Source of the DNA: Cellvibrio sp. UBA7671
GTDB taxonomy: Bacteria; Pseudomonadota; Gammaproteobacteria; Pseudomonadales; Cellvibrionaceae
NCBI GenBank assembly: GCA_002483145.1
Contig: DLHJ01000013.1
Location: 124,001-188,000, forward strand
Length of the DNA: 64,000 bases
Direction of reading: 5' to 3'
How positions within the stretch are numbered: position 1 is the stretch's first letter; the number at the start of each line of letters is the position of its first letter. This document shows positions 40,510 to 56,816 of this stretch, one piece after another. The notes beneath the pieces were generated by a model. That model was given only the letters and a program-made list of their open reading frames with translations. It had not been told where the DNA came from and did no database searches. The position numbers and the translations under genes are program-made.

Positions 40510-41037
40510 TCACCTTATTTTTTCTTCATTTGCAGGGCCTTGAAACTGCGTGTCATCCATAGGCAAACCATCTCTTTGTGTTGGGTCTCGCTCTACAAGC
40601 AACCAGAGTATTTTTAGTTGTGAGTTCTCCTTAATAAAAGTCTCTACCTCTTTCATCTGATCCTGGCATGGCCAGCAGTTTTCTGCCCAATACTGCACAA
40701 ATACATATTTATAGCCCTTGGTTGCATCAAATGAAAATGCGCTATTGGGTGGAATAACTGCCGCAGCAAGTACGGTTTTTAATTGTCGAGTACCAGTTGT
40801 AGGTTTTTGCAGTGCCTGTGCCAGGCCATCTTTAAAATTAGTTGGTATGATTTTGCTGTGGTAAATACTAATTTGATCGGCGTTAAAAACTTCGAGCTCG
40901 GGCAACGCGTAGGCTTTCATATCATTTTTTTTAAGTGTTTCGTACATTGCAATTGGCGGTATACGTAATTCAATGCGTTCTGCTTTTGCCAAAAGCGGGA
41001 ATAAAAAAAATAGAATAAAAATCCTGATGTTTTTCAT
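40510..41037 (-). CDS. Thioredoxin-fold periplasmic protein with a CWPC motif
   Basis: A 175-residue protein with a signal peptide (MKNIRIFILFFLFPLLAKA). The C-terminal half has the start of a thioredoxin fold, YVFVQYWAENCWPCQDQMKEV, where CWPC replaces the usual CGPC. The second half of the fold looks short, and the usual cis-proline is not evident, so the domain may be cut down. The N-terminal half has no known motif. I chose the ATG at 41037; upstream in-frame codons to 41118 would precede the signal peptide. Function unknown. It is upstream of no partner on its strand and stands after the ABC exporter operon's terminator. Confidence 0.65.
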   Translation of the reverse strand: MKNIRIFILFFLFPLLAKAERIELRIPPIAMYETLKKNDMKAYALPELEVFNADQISIYHSKIIPTNFKDGLAQALQKPTTGTRQLKTVLAAAVIPPNSAFSFDATKGYKYVFVQYWAENCWPCQDQMKEVETFIKENSQLKILWLLVERDPTQRDGLPMDDTQFQGPANEEKIR

Positions 41038-41072
41038 GGGGTAGAAATTCCTGTTATCTCTATAGCGATAGG

Positions 41073-41101
41073 GAAAAAGACCCCACCTAAAAATGGTGGG
41101 G
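41073..41101 (-). terminator. Terminator of the ABC exporter operon
   Basis: On the minus strand CCCCACC-ATTTTTA-GGTGGGG is followed by TCTTTTTCCC, 65 bases after the permease stop. Confidence 0.82.
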
Positions 41102-41165
41102 CTAAGACTTCCTGTCAATGCGGGGCTGAGGGATGGCTATGGTCGCCCCTTATTGGTTTAGGAAT

Positions 41166-44401: not shown

Positions 44402-45658
44402 TTAGTAAATTTTCAGGAAATCAATATCGTTATAGGTGGTGTAGGGGCTAACAATGACACGCTCGTTTATATTCAAGCCTGCAAGCACTTCGATAAACTG
44501 GCTATTGCGCCGCCCCAGTTTTATATCGCGCCGATAGGCACGCTTGCCATCGGCCGATACAACAAAAATCCAATGTCCGCCCGTATCCTGAAAAAAAGAA
44601 TTGTTGGGAATTAGTTGTGCAGGCTCATTAGCACCCATTTGCAAGCGTAACTGCAAGGTTTGACCGCGGCTGATATTGGCAGGCTGCGCGCTGGTAAACA
44701 CCAAATCAACACGGAATTGTCCATCAATGACCTGCGGGTAAATTTTTTTTATGCGCAGTGGAAATTCTTGCTGATCCACTTTTGCCAGTGCAGTTTGGTC
44801 AACCCGGGTACGGTTCATATAAAACTCGTCCATCTGTGCCATTAGCTTGAAATGATCCGGGTCATCAATTTGGCCAAAACGTTCGCCGGGCATCAATGAT
44901 TGCCCTGGCTCCAGATTAAATGCTGTCAGGCGGCCAGCAATAGGTGCCTTTACATTGAGGCTTGCTAAATTGGTGCGCGCAAAAGTTAAGTTGTTATTGA
45001 GCGATGTGACTGAATCGCGTAATTGCTTCATTTGCGCTGCTTGCAAGGCTTGGTCTACTTCGCGCGCTTCGCGGATTAATTGCTGGCGCTTTTTTAAATA
45101 GACCAGATTATCTTCAGTCTCTTTCAATTCTGCTGCGGAAATTAATTGCTGTTTTATTAGCGGGCGCATTCGCGCCAATCGTTGGCTCTCAATAGCTATT
45201 TGATGATCCAAATCATTCAAGTTGCGCTTATGTTCAAGATCGTTGCGCGCCAGATTTAATTCCTGAGTCTGCAATAAATTAATTTGCTCACTTACCTGCG
45301 CTTCGCGGGTGATGGATTCCAATTGCAGGCGGGTGTTGGAGATATCCACAATCGCCGCTCCCTCTTCAATCGTTGCTCCATCTTCCAAATGGATTTTTTC
45401 TACCCGTCCGCCTTCAATCGCATCAAGATAAAGCGTGCGGAAGGGCATCACCTCGCCGCGCAGTGGAATTACATCTTCAAAAATTCCCTGTTGAACTGAC
45501 GCGATAACCAAATCCTTTACATCCACACGCAGTGTGCGCTCACTGCTTGGCGCGGCCATCACCCAGAGCGCGGCAAGCGCAGCAACCAGAAAGAGTGCGC
45601 TGATTACTTTGCGCCATTTCTGCCAAAAATTTATTTGTCTGGGTTTATCCATTGTCAT
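44402..45658 (-). CDS. HlyD/MacA-type membrane-fusion adaptor protein
   Basis: The periplasmic adaptor of the exporter. With the ATG at 45658 it has 418 residues: a short cytoplasmic start, one membrane helix (ISALFLVAALAALWVMAAP), a first lipoyl half (EGGRVEKIHLEDGATIEEGAAIVDI), a long coiled-coil hairpin (roughly residues 110-220), the second lipoyl half (LNVKAPIAGRLTAFNLEPGQSL) and beta-barrel domains. Starts are uncertain: a GTG at 45751 is also open but lies only about 12 bases after the predicted sigma-54 transcription start, and neither has a strong ribosome-binding site. It is the first gene of the exporter operon. Confidence 0.88.
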   Translation of the reverse strand: MTMDKPRQINFWQKWRKVISALFLVAALAALWVMAAPSSERTLRVDVKDLVIASVQQGIFEDVIPLRGEVMPFRTLYLDAIEGGRVEKIHLEDGATIEEGAAIVDISNTRLQLESITREAQVSEQINLLQTQELNLARNDLEHKRNLNDLDHQIAIESQRLARMRPLIKQQLISAAELKETEDNLVYLKKRQQLIREAREVDQALQAAQMKQLRDSVTSLNNNLTFARTNLASLNVKAPIAGRLTAFNLEPGQSLMPGERFGQIDDPDHFKLMAQMDEFYMNRTRVDQTALAKVDQQEFPLRIKKIYPQVIDGQFRVDLVFTSAQPANISRGQTLQLRLQMGANEPAQLIPNNSFFQDTGGHWIFVVSADGKRAYRRDIKLGRRNSQFIEVLAGLNINERVIVSPYTTYNDIDFLKIY

Positions 45659-45774
45659 TGGGGTCTTTTTATCAACTCGTTCGTTTTGTTGCGGCTTGAT
45701 TAAAAAATATCGCGCTATCAACGGCTTATCGCTCTGGGTAGCCTTATCCACCGAGCAGCGCTGCTACTTATGTC

Positions 45775-45789
45775 GCAACAGCTATGCCA
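45775..45789 (-). promoter_or_regulatory. Sigma-54 promoter of the ABC exporter operon
   Basis: The minus strand reads TGGCATAGCTGTTGC, a clear -24/-12 pair with correct spacing, predicting a start near 45763. It points into the adaptor gene and lies downstream of two operator-like palindromes next to the gene of a sigma-54 activator. Confidence 0.85.
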
Positions 45790-45854
45790 TTTAATAAAAG
45801 CCAATAATTTCAATTGGTTATCGTTGTTTTGGTAGGTGCCTCGTGGCTTGATGT

Positions 45855-45889
45855 GTTCGATTTCGAACGCTTGTTGTTCGCAATCGAAC
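45855..45889. promoter_or_regulatory. Two upstream activator sites for the adjacent sigma-54 regulator
   Basis: GTTCGATTTCGAAC (45855-45868) and GTTCGCAATCGAAC (45876-45889) both fit GTTCG-N4-CGAAC. Their centres are 21 bp apart (two turns) and about 99 and 120 bp upstream of the predicted exporter start, where enhancer-binding proteins usually bind. They are also close to the regulator's own start, so they may serve autoregulation. Confidence 0.72.
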
Positions 45890-45943
45890 GACATAAACTG
45901 CGATTACGCTCACTAGAAAACAATAATGCCAGGGATATTTCTC

Positions 45944-47341
45944 ATGACAGTAATTGCTGGACATCTGTTAGTGCTCGATGACGATGAGGATATTTTGTTG
46001 TCGGCGCGCCTGTTGCTCAAACGCCAGATAAAAACCTTGAGCTGTTTAAATGACGCGGCCGAGCTGCCAGAGTTTTTAGCGCATCACATGGTTGATGTAG
46101 TATTGCTGGATATGAATTTTACCCTCGGCGATAACTCTGGTCGCGATGGTTTTGAATGGCTCGCCTATTTGCGAACACATTATCCGCAGATTGTGGTAGT
46201 GGTGATGACGGCTTATGCCGGTGTTGAATTGGCGGTCAATGCGATTAAGGCGGGTGCAACAGATTTTGTGATAAAACCCTGGAGCAATGAAAAATTAATT
46301 GCGACTCTGCACAGCGCTGTGGCGTTGGCACAGGCGCGCAATAAAAACCAATTATTGCAGGGTGAAAATGTCGCATTGCGCGGTTCGTTAGAGCATTTGT
46401 CGCAGATGCAAAAGCCGGCTTGTTTTATCGGCGAGACAACCAGCATGCGTGAGCTACTGCGCAAACTTAGCCTCTGCGCACCTACCGAAGCCAATGTTTT
46501 AATTTTGGGTGAAAATGGTTCCGGTAAAGAGTTACTCGCACGTGAGATTCACGCGCGCTCCAAACGCGCCGGCAATATTTTTATGGCTATTGATATGGGC
46601 GCAATTCCGGAAAATCTATTTGAATCGGAATTGTTTGGCTATAAAAAAGGGGCGTTTACCGGTGCAAATGAAAATCGCATGGGGAGATTGGTCGCCGCCA
46701 ACGGCGGGACTTTATTCCTCGATGAAATCGCCAATCTTGCACTGCATCTGCAGGTAAAGTTGTTGCGTGTGCTGGAGCAACGCCAGGTAACACCAGTTGG
46801 CGATGAAAAACCCTTTGCATTAAATGTGCGTGTTATTGCCGCAACTAATGCTAGCTACGTGCACTTAACGGATGAGCGGCAATTTCGCCAGGATTTATTA
46901 TATCGCCTGAATACCGTAGAACTTACTCTGCCGCCGCTGCGCGAACGCAAAGACGATATCCCATTGTTAGCCGATCATTTCCTTAGCGTTTATGCACAAA
47001 AATATCAACGCAAAAAGCCACTACTTAGCCACAAAGCGCTGGCCGCACTGCAGGAATATTCCTGGCCAGGCAATGTGCGTGCGCTAAATCATGCCATTGA
47101 GCGGGCGCTGGTGTTGAGTGATAAAGATACCTTGCAAGCGGAAGATTTTGCCCTCGCACCTGTGGCTGAAAATTCTCTATCTGATTCAGTACAAACTAAC
47201 TGTTTAAATTTGGAAATATTAGAGCGCAATGCAGTTGAGAAGGCGCTAAAAAAACATGCGGGCAATATTTCACAAGCGGCGCGGGAATTGGGCTTAACGC
47301 GCATGGCGCTCTATCGCAGGATGGAAAAACATGATCTCTAA
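45944..47341 (+). CDS. Sigma-54-dependent response regulator (NtrC family)
   Basis: A 465-residue enhancer-binding protein in three domains: a receiver (DDDED acidic pocket, phospho-acceptor aspartate in VVLLDMNF, lysine in VIKPW) to about residue 120; an AAA+ domain with Walker A GENGSGKE, the sigma-54 contact loop GAFTGA, Walker B GTLFLDEI and the RFRQDLLYRLN-like arginine region; and a Fis-type HTH at the end (AARELGLTRMALYRRMEKH). I chose ATG 45944 with AGGGA upstream; an ATG 18 bases earlier has no ribosome-binding site. It overlaps the kinase gene by 11 bases. Its likely target is the divergent exporter operon. Confidence 0.94.
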   Translation: MTVIAGHLLVLDDDEDILLSARLLLKRQIKTLSCLNDAAELPEFLAHHMVDVVLLDMNFTLGDNSGRDGFEWLAYLRTHYPQIVVVVMTAYAGVELAVNAIKAGATDFVIKPWSNEKLIATLHSAVALAQARNKNQLLQGENVALRGSLEHLSQMQKPACFIGETTSMRELLRKLSLCAPTEANVLILGENGSGKELLAREIHARSKRAGNIFMAIDMGAIPENLFESELFGYKKGAFTGANENRMGRLVAANGGTLFLDEIANLALHLQVKLLRVLEQRQVTPVGDEKPFALNVRVIAATNASYVHLTDERQFRQDLLYRLNTVELTLPPLRERKDDIPLLADHFLSVYAQKYQRKKPLLSHKALAALQEYSWPGNVRALNHAIERALVLSDKDTLQAEDFALAPVAENSLSDSVQTNCLNLEILERNAVEKALKKHAGNISQAARELGLTRMALYRRMEKHDL

Positions 47342-48710
47342 CGCTGTGATGTCAATCAAGTCAGGATTGACGGATTTTCGTATCAATATACTGCTGCGGT
47401 TAGTGCTGATTCTTTGCACTATGTTGCTCTTGGCCGGTATTTATCACGCGGAACCATTTTTACTATTCAGTATGATTGGCATAGCGATATTATTGTCGGT
47501 ACAGATTTATTTACTTTTTAGTTATATGCAATCCACCCAGAGCGAAATGGAAAATTTTTTTGACGCAGTGCGTTATGAAGACGGCGCACGCCGAATCAAT
47601 ACCCGCTTTAAACAAAGCCAAAACCTCAAAGTCCTGTGGGAGGAATTGCAAACGCAGTTACAACAGTTACGACAGAAAAATGAAGAACTGGTGCGCTATT
47701 ACAGTTTGCTGCTGGAAAAAGTCCCTGTTGCGCTAGTGGTTGTTGAAGATAAGGGTGAAGGCGCAAAAATTGAATTGGTCAATGTGGCCGCGCAGCAATT
47801 ATTTAAACGCAGCTACCTGGCGGCAGTCGATCAGTTGCAGGAATACGGCGCTCAACTGGCGCAGGACATCCAGCAAATAACGGCAGGCGAACAGCGCAGT
47901 TCCCATCTGTTGAGTGATCAAGTGTCTATAGCAGTGGCACTGTCGGCGGCAGCGATTCAATTACAAGGTGGAACCAAAAAAGTCATTAGTATTCAGCCTA
48001 TCCAACGCGAACTGGATAGGCAGGAAATTCTCGCCTGGCAAAATTTGGTACAGGTATTTACCCACGAAATTATGAATTCAATGACGCCCGTCGCGTCACT
48101 GAGCAAAACGGCAGATGAATTATTGTTGACGCAATTAGATAACCATGGGAATACCGATGAGTCTTTGCAGGATGCGCAACAAGCGATCCATACGGTGGCG
48201 CGCCGCGCTGAACATTTAATGCAATTTGTGCAGGCTTATCGACGTATTGCCAATCCACCGCAACTAAATTGCGTGGATATAGTTGTGCAGGATTTACTGA
48301 AGAATGTATGCCGCTTGTTTCAGGTGCAGGCAGGTGAGCGGAAAATCACATTGGAGTGCAACGCAACTCCTGGACATCTTAAATTACATGGTGACCCTGC
48401 CCAAATTGAGCAGGCGCTAATCAATTTAGTGAAAAATTCAATGGACGCCTTATCTTCAATGAACAATGGCCGAATCTATTTACATGCTTACATTGGTCAT
48501 GGCGGCAATTTATTAATCGATGTGATTGATAATGGAATAGGAATTCCAATAGACAAATTGGAACAAATTTTTGTGCCTTTTTACACCTCAAAACGAGATG
48601 GCACTGGTGTTGGGTTGTTTTTGGTGAAACAAATTATGCAGGCGCATCGCGGATCGGTTTGTGCACTATATGATGAAAAAGGTGGAAGTCTTTTGCGGTT
48701 GATGTTTTAG
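47331..48710 (+). CDS. Membrane sensor histidine kinase, partner of the sigma-54 regulator
   Basis: A 459-residue kinase with two membrane helices near residues 20-70 joined by a very short periplasmic loop, a cytoplasmic coiled-coil (LWEELQTQLQQLRQKNEELV), a PAS-like region (YSLLLEKVPVALVVVED, then IELVNVAAQQLF), the phospho-acceptor FTHEIMNSMTPVASLS, and an HATPase_c domain with LINLVKNSMDAL, DNGIGIP and GTGVGLFLVKQIM. The tiny periplasmic part suggests that it senses a signal within the membrane or cytoplasm. It overlaps the response-regulator gene by 11 bases. The last residues after the G2 box are short but complete. Confidence 0.94.
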   Translation: MISNAVMSIKSGLTDFRINILLRLVLILCTMLLLAGIYHAEPFLLFSMIGIAILLSVQIYLLFSYMQSTQSEMENFFDAVRYEDGARRINTRFKQSQNLKVLWEELQTQLQQLRQKNEELVRYYSLLLEKVPVALVVVEDKGEGAKIELVNVAAQQLFKRSYLAAVDQLQEYGAQLAQDIQQITAGEQRSSHLLSDQVSIAVALSAAAIQLQGGTKKVISIQPIQRELDRQEILAWQNLVQVFTHEIMNSMTPVASLSKTADELLLTQLDNHGNTDESLQDAQQAIHTVARRAEHLMQFVQAYRRIANPPQLNCVDIVVQDLLKNVCRLFQVQAGERKITLECNATPGHLKLHGDPAQIEQALINLVKNSMDALSSMNNGRIYLHAYIGHGGNLLIDVIDNGIGIPIDKLEQIFVPFYTSKRDGTGVGLFLVKQIMQAHRGSVCALYDEKGGSLLRLMF

Positions 48711-48850: not shown

Positions 48851-48916
48851 CATATATAGTTCAAGGAGAAATGGTGCAAAACAAATCAAATAACAGTGAT
48901 ACTTAAGGAGAAACCT

Positions 48917-49540
48917 TTGAAAATTTTAACTTCATTAGTGATATTTTGTTTATCGGCAGTGGCATTAAGCAGCAATGCAACGATCATTTGGGATGAAAGT
49001 ATTAATGGTAGCTCTGAGGGCATGCCAATGCTTAATTTGCAGATGGGGGCAAATGAAATTTTAGGCTCAACCCGTTGGATTGGTGATGACATCGATCCGT
49101 TTATTTATACCGAAGCAAATCGGTACGTTTTGAGCTTACAAGAAGGATATAGCATAAAATCCATAACCGCTGAGATCTTTAATTCTGTACTAGATTCTCA
49201 GGAGTCACTTGACAGCCTGTGGGCAACGACATTTTGGTCACTGCAAGATTTTACCTATGACTTCAAGTGGTACGAATATACCCGCATTGGTGAACCGTCA
49301 CCTTATGCTAGTTTCAGTAATCTTCCGCTCAACGGTTTCAATAATTTTCTCTTGAATCAAGCTGCTGGGCTTTCTATTTCGGGGCCGTTTGATCTTTCCT
49401 GGGATTATAGAGTGACTATTGAAGTAGTTAATTCAGTTCCCGAGCCATCATCATTATGGTTGGTGCTGTTCGCACTTGCTGTCATCTTTGGGCACAAATA
49501 TCAACTAAGAAACGTGTCAGCCCTTTGCAAAATATTCTAG
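48917..49540 (+). CDS. PEP-CTERM sorted exported protein
   Basis: A 207-residue exported protein. The start is best taken as the TTG at 48917, eight bases after AAGGAGA; it then begins MKILTSLVIFCLSAVALSS, a good signal peptide ending near SSNA. The end carries VPEPSSLWLVLFALAVIFG followed by HKYQLR, the PEP-CTERM tag for exosortase processing, though a few residues (NVSALCKIF) extend beyond the basic cluster, which is unusual. The mature part is rich in Ser, Trp, Tyr and Asp; no enzyme motif is visible. It is unrelated in sequence to the PEP-CTERM protein at 10484-11188 except for the tag. Confidence 0.8.
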   Translation: MKILTSLVIFCLSAVALSSNATIIWDESINGSSEGMPMLNLQMGANEILGSTRWIGDDIDPFIYTEANRYVLSLQEGYSIKSITAEIFNSVLDSQESLDSLWATTFWSLQDFTYDFKWYEYTRIGEPSPYASFSNLPLNGFNNFLLNQAAGLSISGPFDLSWDYRVTIEVVNSVPEPSSLWLVLFALAVIFGHKYQLRNVSALCKIF

Positions 49541-56045: not shown

Positions 56046-56816
56046 CTAGTCATCAATCTCCGCAAGTTCCGACGCCTGTTCGCAAATCGCAACAAAGTGA
56101 CCCGGGTCCAAACTCGCACCGCCCACTAACAAACCATCGATATCTGCTTGCTGTAATAAATCGCGCGCATTGCTTTTAGTTACGCTGCCGCCGTACAAAA
56201 TGCGCACGCGATTGGCAGTAGCTTCATCAAAAATGCGCGTGAGTTCTGCGCGGATAAACTGATGCACTTCTTGTGCAATTGCGGGTGTTGCTGCAAGGCC
56301 GGTGCCAATCGCCCAGACAGGTTCGTAGGCGATGCACAGGTCTTTGCCGTGCAGGTCAATACCGGTGAGGCCGCCGCGCAATTGTTCACGCAATACTTGC
56401 TCGGTGATATTGGTTTCGCGCTGCTGTTGGTTTTCACCGACACAGAGCACTGGCAATAATTCGTGGTTCAAGGCAGTGCGCACTTTGATTTGGCAGCCCT
56501 CGTTATTTTCCGCAAACATCGCGCGGCGTTCGGAGTGGCCTATTAAACACAGTGAGCAGCCCGCTTGCTTGAGCATTTGTGCCGAGGTCTCGCCGGTGTA
56601 GGCGCCTGATTCGTAGCGGCTCACATTTTGGCTGCCGATTTGCAATTCGGAATACTGCAAAAAAGTCAGCATATCGCGCATATACAAATAGGGTGGGCAG
56701 ATGGCGATTTGCGCCGCAAAGTGTTTGCCGATAAACGAGGCCACCGAAGTGCAAATCAAATCCAGACCGCCGTTGAGTTTCCAGTTGGCGATCACTATGG
56801 GTTTACGTTGTTTCAT
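56046..56816 (-). CDS. tpiA: Triosephosphate isomerase
   Basis: Interconverts dihydroxyacetone phosphate and glyceraldehyde-3-phosphate. The 256 residues contain the family motifs: IVIANWKLNGG with the catalytic Lys, GSQNVSRYESGAYTGE, LIGHSERRAM with the catalytic His, AYEPVWAIGTG with the catalytic Glu and the start of the flexible loop (tglaatpa), and LYGGSVTKSN with GLLVGGASLDP. The loop differs a little from that of the usual housekeeping enzyme, so this might be a second, cluster-specific isomerase. It heads the tpiA-fba-fbp series and has two LacI-type operator candidates in its promoter region. Confidence 0.95.
   Translation of the reverse strand: MKQRKPIVIANWKLNGGLDLICTSVASFIGKHFAAQIAICPPYLYMRDMLTFLQYSELQIGSQNVSRYESGAYTGETSAQMLKQAGCSLCLIGHSERRAMFAENNEGCQIKVRTALNHELLPVLCVGENQQQRETNITEQVLREQLRGGLTGIDLHGKDLCIAYEPVWAIGTGLAATPAIAQEVHQFIRAELTRIFDEATANRVRILYGGSVTKSNARDLLQQADIDGLLVGGASLDPGHFVAICEQASELAEIDD

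Follow-up and report, generated by a model that had tools for sequence, protein, structure and literature searches.

Two-component circuits that act through sigma-54, such as NtrBC, ZraSR and AtoSC, combine tandem upstream sites, a −24/−12 promoter, an IHF-like bend (IHF, integration host factor) and an operator close to the promoter of the regulator itself. Enhancers of the sigma-54 type are commonly described as distance-tolerant. Bce modules comprise an OmpR-type regulator, a ten-helix permease and a kinase with a short loop, and we know of no adaptor or two-component system for E. coli YbbAP. A general tie between sigma-54 and the cell exterior is described in the accessible part of PMC3162934, and the sections of PMC12316311 on which we draw report sigma-54 promoters to be enriched at COG0577 permeases of γ-Proteobacteria, Opitutia and Bacteroidia—according to its authors, the first evidence that ties these systems to sigma-54. 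Our searches of the open-licence PMC literature listed no described sigma-54/MacB-type two-component system that we recognised. Here, we analysed a 64,000-nucleotide stretch of Cellvibrio sp. UBA7671 (hereafter, the window; G000:C5:124001-188000, within the 5.04 Mb genome G000), in which divergent operons flank an intergenic region at 45652-45944: an exporter operon occupies the minus strand, and the plus strand encodes a response regulator together with a histidine kinase. What the sequences show directly is the gene content, the operator and the promoter with their spacing, and the conservation of all these. Judged from such features, the locus very probably represents a self-contained exporter module, the own sensor pair of which would switch on the exporter through a paired operator, an IHF site and a sigma-54 promoter (Table 1).

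An earlier sequence-only reading of this stretch had described a divergent exporter operon facing a GAFTGA-containing regulator and its kinase, and Pfam, NCBIfam and hydropathy analyses bore out this gene content. The same reading had pointed to two GTTCG-N4-CGAAC palindromes, which do lie where it placed them, 21 bp apart from start to start. The window contains two copies of the palindrome against 0.08 expected, with two copies in 0 of 100 shuffles; in the whole genome the exact palindrome occurs three times, the third inside an open reading frame (ORF) read by eye as smpB. The looser form GTNCGN4CGNAC occupies 36 exact places in the genome—rarer than its mirror control, which has 98—and the window pair is the only case of two such places less than 100 bp apart. 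Given that this exact pair has no second copy in the genome, the regulator can be assigned to its target from the sequence. Chance palindromes were rejected on the basis of the window shuffles, shuffles of a first set of 24 loci and a negative control, in which the same operator search upstream of 20 paralogous regulators returned none. A wider regulon of the exact operator was also rejected, since none of the remaining 34 exact GTNCGN4CGNAC places has a partner within 100 bp, mismatched pairs not having been searched genome-wide.

Orthologous regions were then compared, a check that the sequence-only reading had proposed. A scan of genome contigs with a single protein gave seven loci. Within the genus, the orthologous regulator was found in 7 of 21 Cellvibrio genomes (E 1e-120), and in five of these, the window included, the exporter adjoins the regulator and the intergenic region is intact. 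In another (G001), the regulator region starts at the contig end, and the seventh is G020, described below. All five intact regions, together with most loci from other families, keep the elements: each of the five has two sites 21 bp apart and a −24/−12 element—one site in G013 carrying a mismatch—in surroundings that have largely drifted (mean column identity, 57%). With a regulator profile, relatives were detected in 11/293 genomes of the order and 15/398 of the phylum (G000 being counted in each set), in 47/147 genomes of family f48, which belongs to the same class, and in 23/149 genomes of family f84, from another class of the same phylum (alphaproteobacterial, at a guess from UrcA and composition). 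These genome counts are lower bounds, with the best 4–11 candidates per genome scored at E thresholds of 1e-125, 1e-130 and 1e-140; of 50 matches in one family search, 20 yielded no locus and were not read. Of the first set of 24 loci, 17 had exact sites (0.045 expected from shuffles), 21 had sites with ≤1 mismatch (1.07 expected) and 16 had pairs (0.23 expected), and the exporter-ward promoter score exceeded the regulator-ward one in 22, passing P 0.05 in 18. The oriented set comprised 73 of 76 loci (L068, L072 and L083 could not be oriented), leaving out L009, which is cut by a contig end, and L085-L089, of the codirectional class. The adaptor gene is divergent in 67 of the 73; of these 67, 66 have a site with ≤1 mismatch no more than 200 bp from the regulator, and 57 have a pair 20–24 bp apart. 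In f48, the pair is spaced by 21 bp in 30/30 loci read, with the consensus TGTACG-N4-YGAACA, a 5-bp linker resembling CTnGG, and TGTACG-N4-TGAACA.

The −24/−12 element claimed to face the exporter was recovered as TGGCATAGCTGTTGCG, with the GG/GC spacing of such elements, one mismatch to TGGCAYN5TTGCW and a conserved position. Transcription of the exporter would start some 12 nt downstream of the −12 element, near 45763, which puts the site centres near −98 and −119—close to the −99 and −120 given by the sequence-only reading. The gap between operator and promoter measures 63–65 bp in 5/5 Cellvibrio regions. Taking the best-scoring promoter, it is 62–65 bp in 26/30 f48 loci, and in two of the four exceptions (L076 and L162) the second-best promoter lies at 64 bp. 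At −12, TTGTA replaces TTGCA in many f48 promoters, at a cost to their score; the constancy of their position speaks for genuine promoters. For 21 further loci with a 21-bp pair, a promoter scoring at least 10 was found in 18, at gaps of 53–56, 63–66, 74–77 or 89 bp; these 18 gaps cluster at the helical period (R 0.72 at 10.5, P 6e-5 under a uniform null, for loci that are related). Across the survey (72 loci given, with gaps for the 56 whose sites form a 21-bp pair), the gap is 63–67 bp in 38/56. The operator-promoter distance is nearly constant, or mostly changed by helical turns. Between the two elements, an IHF-like site with ≤1 mismatch occurs in 5/5 Cellvibrio regions at nearly the same offset (0.85 expected), in 20/30 f48 loci (6.85 expected) and in 5/7 other loci (1.23 expected), i.e., in 30/42 loci outside f84, and most Cellvibrio and f48 matches adopt one of two offsets and orientations. 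Scores obtained with our sigma-54 matrix and IHF consensus are relative. Genes for rpoN and himA were both found in the genome of the window. Separately, a perfect −24/−12 match, TGGCACCGGCCTTGCA, was noticed at 56292-56307 of the window and at position 1254 of L048, in two genomes; it may be mere coding sequence.

Several observations weigh against this picture. The loci are related by descent, and their counts are consequently not independent. No site with ≤1 mismatch was found in L011, L069, L071 and L084 of the oriented set, nor in the Bacteroidales locus L058 of the first 24, and G020 keeps regulator and kinase beside a permease remnant with the operator gone. Among the 21 loci outside Cellvibrio and f48, three have their best promoter at 130, 179 and 220 bp, and the gaps of 88–89 bp (L160 and L120) do not differ from 64 bp by full turns. 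The IHF-like site is present in 0/14 f84 loci (0.48 expected); four codirectional loci (L100, L113, L114 and L116) lack a good −24/−12 element before the adaptor, the best scoring 6.1–9.2; and the vegetative promoter of the regulator is weak, none being reported by a consensus scan. Finally, the −24/−12 match alone is within chance, with six such matches in the window against nine expected. Since the match by itself is not significant, the promoter call rests on place and conservation. The G020 locus (L041 / L011), with its sensor pair kept and its exporter down to a permease remnant, looks like a module in decay. A different layout was seen in L183 (G121:C37), where an operator and a −24/−12 element point towards an RHS-repeat gene at a distance of about 1.4 kb; the stretch read contains no exporter, and the kinase ORF has no membrane hairpin by eye.

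The same grammar recurs in paralogous modules of Cellvibrio. Four of these (L043, L044, L045 and L049), chosen from the 19 codirectional loci scanned because the palindrome precedes their adaptor, show sites 20 bp apart, a gap of 62–63 bp, the promoter TGGCACAGAC[TC]TTGTA and an IHF-like site 5–6 bp from the promoter, exact in 3/4; no palindrome was found within 200 bp upstream of their regulators. Of ten further codirectional loci examined, L046, L048, L051, L054 and L115 have −24/−12 scores of 11–16 before the adaptor, several of them with different dyads by eye. Other dyads before the adaptor (TCCC..GGGA, TGTCTCA..) were noted by eye in L046, L048, L051, L114, L115 and L116. Such differences hint at a half-site specificity code among paralogous modules, for which the TCCC and TGTCTCA half sites before the exporters offer a test. 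A second two-component exporter operon, L182 (= L035; G000:C5:103000-120000), is found on the contig of the window at a distance of about 61 kb. All its genes are on one strand, with Acyl_transf_3 and TPR genes inserted, and the −24/−12 element TGGCATGGAAGCTGCT stands before its adaptor with a score of 14.2. Sigma-54 control of all MacB-like operons in the genome was rejected: of six operons read, only those of the window and L182—both adjoining this type of regulator—have the element before the adaptor. The others (L178-L181) have no −24/−12 element scoring at least 13 before the first exporter gene; L178 has one (14.8) inside a permease gene.

The regulator has the makeup of an NtrC-type sigma-54 response regulator, with Pfam Response_reg, Sigma54_activat and HTH_8 domains: a phosphoacceptor Asp (D56), an AAA+ domain with Walker motifs and GAFTGA at 236, and a Fis-type helix-turn-helix. 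In the 56 loci measured, the operator is located 38–187 bp upstream of the regulator gene—a distance less tightly kept than that to the exporter promoter. With the operator so close upstream, the regulator probably modulates its own gene, either by repression or by activation. In 5/5 Cellvibrio regions, TTG[TC]TG and TA[AGC]ACT are separated by 17 bp and the distal site falls between them; no fixed −10 element for the regulator emerged from the 30 f48 loci read. Six f84 loci (L080, L081, L129, L135, L136 and L139) display a TGGCAYG-N4-TTGAT-like sequence on the regulator strand, directly before the operator, and the regulator may accordingly have a sigma-54 promoter in some f84 genomes.

The exporter is assembled from an adaptor, a separate ATPase and a duplicated permease, for which hydropathy analysis predicts two large periplasmic regions besides its helices. 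MacB_PCD and FtsX score above the Pfam cut-offs and the fold matches agree, as expected for the MacB superfamily (type VII ABC); the ADOP subfamily model stays below its cut-off. An AlphaFold model of the permease (pLDDT 79.5, pTM 0.72, from 17 sequences) matched E. coli YbbAP best, then MacB and LolCDE, with BceAB lower. TM-scores to full chains are low, and the fold match therefore supports the superfamily, not the function. Membership of the darobactin exporter was ruled out by scores under the equivalog cut-offs (DarD 284.9/375, DarC 229.6/450, DarB 66.2/700), and MacAB proper by the separate 227-aa ATPase and the 831-aa, eight-helix permease. Within Cellvibrio, five permease copies share 82, 46, 29, 30 and 30% identity with the window's copy, and two genomes have two permease copies side by side, whereas identities amount to 80–98% for the ATPase and 67–94% for the regulator. 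The permease is the fastest changing component, which suggests that the substrate range shifts and the switch stays. An OEP-family gene in the exporter operon of L184 (G202) supports a tripartite machine. The sequence-only reading had the adaptor gene right but started it at 45658; among the possible starts (45751 and 45658 lie upstream), the one common to orthologues, by eye, is the ATG six bases further in, at 45652.

Table 1. Features of the exporter module and its regulatory region (window positions).
Feature	Position	Strand	Basis or remark
Duplicated FtsX/MacB_PCD permease, 831 aa	41166..43661	-	Pfam FtsX (two stretches) and MacB_PCD; eight helices by hydropathy
LolD/MacB-type ABC ATPase, 227 aa	43686..44369	-	Pfam ABC_tran; best NCBIfam model DarD, below cut-off
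Periplasmic adaptor (membrane fusion protein)	44402..45652	-	HlyD_D23/HlyD_3; RND_mfp above cut-off, DarC below
Predicted sigma-54 −24/−12 promoter of the exporter operon, TGGCATAGCTGTTGCG	45774..45789	-	Match and conserved position
IHF-like site, TTTCAATTGGTTA	45808..45820	+	One mismatch to the consensus WATCAANNNNTTR
Putative promoter-proximal activator site, GTTCGATTTCGAAC	45855..45868	.	65 bp from the −24/−12 element
Putative distal activator site, GTTCGCAATCGAAC	45876..45889	.	21 bp from the proximal site
Candidate vegetative promoter of the regulator, TTGTTG-17-TAAACT	45871..45899	+	Weak consensus; overlapped by the distal site
NtrC-type response regulator, REC-AAA-HTH_8	45944..47341	+	Pfam; GAFTGA intact; further ATG at 45926
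Histidine kinase (HATPase)	47331..48710	+	H, N and G box sequences; two N-terminal helices, 6-residue gap; ORF overlaps the regulator ORF by 11 nt

A PEP-CTERM protein is encoded directly 3' of the kinase (48896-49540), and downstream of the permease lies a small ORF (40510-41118) with a CWPC motif by eye; this thioredoxin-like ORF was rejected as a module member, there being no tblastn match at E 1e-8 in orthologous loci. Outside the core, no neighbouring gene is widely shared between loci: the largest such cluster covers 5/26 loci, one member being a chemoreceptor. In f84 (L080, L081 and L119-L140), a second site pair nearer the adaptor was observed in 15/24 loci read, and in several loci a small secreted ORF is located between the adaptor and the first −24/−12 element. 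Five of the ten such ORFs submitted belong to the UrcA family, all over the cut-off, and the other five have no family. UrcA of Caulobacter is described, in the part of PMC8963506 consulted, as a periplasmic protein of unknown function that is uranium-induced via another two-component system; the f84 proteins may be accessory to the exporter or its cargo.

The claim that activator, two sites and exporter promoter form one circuit gains support from conservation; binding, sigma-54 and IHF dependence, autoregulation, signal and cargo are inferred. In the proposed mechanism, the hairpin kinase, in which no sensor domain is recognised, would phosphorylate the NtrC-type regulator, which would then bind the two copies of GTnCG-N4-CGnAC, 21 bp apart, that make up the tandem operator ahead of the exporter operon. 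IHF would bend the 65 bp between operator and promoter, bringing the AAA+ oligomer onto sigma-54 RNA polymerase, and activation at the −24/−12 element would turn on adaptor, ATPase and permease. Binding at the operator would probably also adjust the level of the sensor pair. One could instead suppose that the palindromes are the regulator's autoregulatory operator only, the exporter being driven otherwise and the −24/−12 match being coincidental. Their position upstream of the regulator, at the distances given above, and the insignificance of the −24/−12 match taken alone speak for this view, which we nonetheless consider very improbable: the promoter-operator spacing is tighter than the operator-regulator spacing, and the four paralogous modules hold sites and promoter before the exporter, with no site in the 200 bp upstream of the regulator.

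On the input side of the proposed circuit, the kinase would feel a compound through the membrane or through the exporter, a MacB-superfamily machine whose likeliest job would be the clearing of a membrane-active or periplasmic compound. The sequence-only reading had noted that the kinase has almost no periplasmic loop, and this holds well beyond the window: two helices with 3–12 residues between the predicted cores were found by hydropathy in 23 of the 24 kinases resolved (25 tried; L108 unresolved), L090 having one clear helix only. We take this hairpin topology to be of the type called intramembrane-sensing. Such constancy of the hairpin counts against a kinase that reads a cytoplasmic signal via the stretch after the hairpin, its membrane part serving as an anchor only, as does a Pfam scan without a sensor domain in the window kinase, the post-hairpin stretch included. 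On the other hand, about 185 residues separate hairpin and H box, and the best NCBIfam models, AtoS and ZraS, would fit that notion despite scoring far below their cut-offs; a cytoplasmic input seems somewhat unlikely to us. We are similarly doubtful that the exporter secretes a product of the cell's own and not a foreign compound. The f84 small secreted ORFs downstream of a −24/−12 element, half of those submitted being UrcA-family, and the darobactin models scoring best, below cut-off, for ATPase and adaptor would suit secretion. However, the leader before the adaptor in the window would be only about 111 nt long (counted from the predicted start; such ORFs were looked for in f84, not in f48), biosynthetic genes do not recur next to the module, and UrcA is itself a periplasmic protein to which the consulted part of PMC8963506 assigns no known function. 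The dedicated sensor gives a route to the substrate, as any inducer of the promoter becomes a candidate cargo.

Set against known systems, the module is less singular than the sequence-only reading supposed. It had called a sigma-54-controlled exporter with its own two-component system unusual, but four paralogous Cellvibrio modules use the same grammar, a second such operon sits on the same contig, and the enrichment at FtsX-type permeases has already been reported (PMC12316311, in the sections consulted). Our analysis and that study are alike in establishing in silico a link between sigma-54 and FtsX-type ABC systems (COG0577/COG1136 there); those sections pair the promoters with no regulator, operator, IHF site or spacing rule. 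Through this module, the statistical link drawn there would become a concrete circuit of activator, operator, bend site and promoter, each open to experiment. New relative to the sequence-only reading are an IHF-like site, a rule for the spacing and an operator that sits at the promoter region of the regulator itself.

Compared with MacAB-TolC, the adaptor and a MacB-superfamily permease are shared. The adaptor is of MacA type by HlyD_D23 and RND_mfp (above cut-off), with the MacA model below its cut-off and weak MacA matches among solved structures. The ATPase is separate and the permease duplicated with eight helices, unlike a fused four-helix ATPase-permease, and the operon of the window has no outer membrane gene, whereas L184 has its OEP-family gene. 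YbbAP, the best fold match of the modelled permease, shows 14% identity over the alignment and a TM-score of 0.44–0.45, and the darobactin exporter DarBCD supplies the best-scoring NCBIfam models for ATPase and adaptor, all three of its models being below cut-off. Like BceRS-BceAB, the module has a two-helix, short-loop kinase adjoining an FtsX-fold transporter, and BceAB is among the fold matches of the permease model; it differs in having an NtrC-type in place of an OmpR-type regulator, eight instead of ten permease helices, and an adaptor. Transporter-coupled sensing as in BceRS-BceAB corresponds here to co-occurrence only (67/73 loci). It is a speculative and fairly improbable extension that the module is a Gram-negative counterpart of Bce-type need-based sensing, in which a sigma-54 activator would stand in for the OmpR-type regulator, the kinase would read the exporter's working state, and enhancer, IHF site and promoter would form a phase-locked unit across Pseudomonadota families. 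The closest relatives of the circuit itself are NtrBC, ZraSR and AtoSC, with which it shares regulator domains and GAFTGA and, going by the general features of those circuits, tandem sites, a −24/−12 promoter, an IHF-like bend and the operator placement. It departs from them in having one exact paired operator in the genome of the window, a nearly fixed or helical-turn spacing, an exporter as target and a kinase without a recognised sensor domain. The parts of the circuit are of known kinds, and what is added here is a conserved grammar and its breadth.

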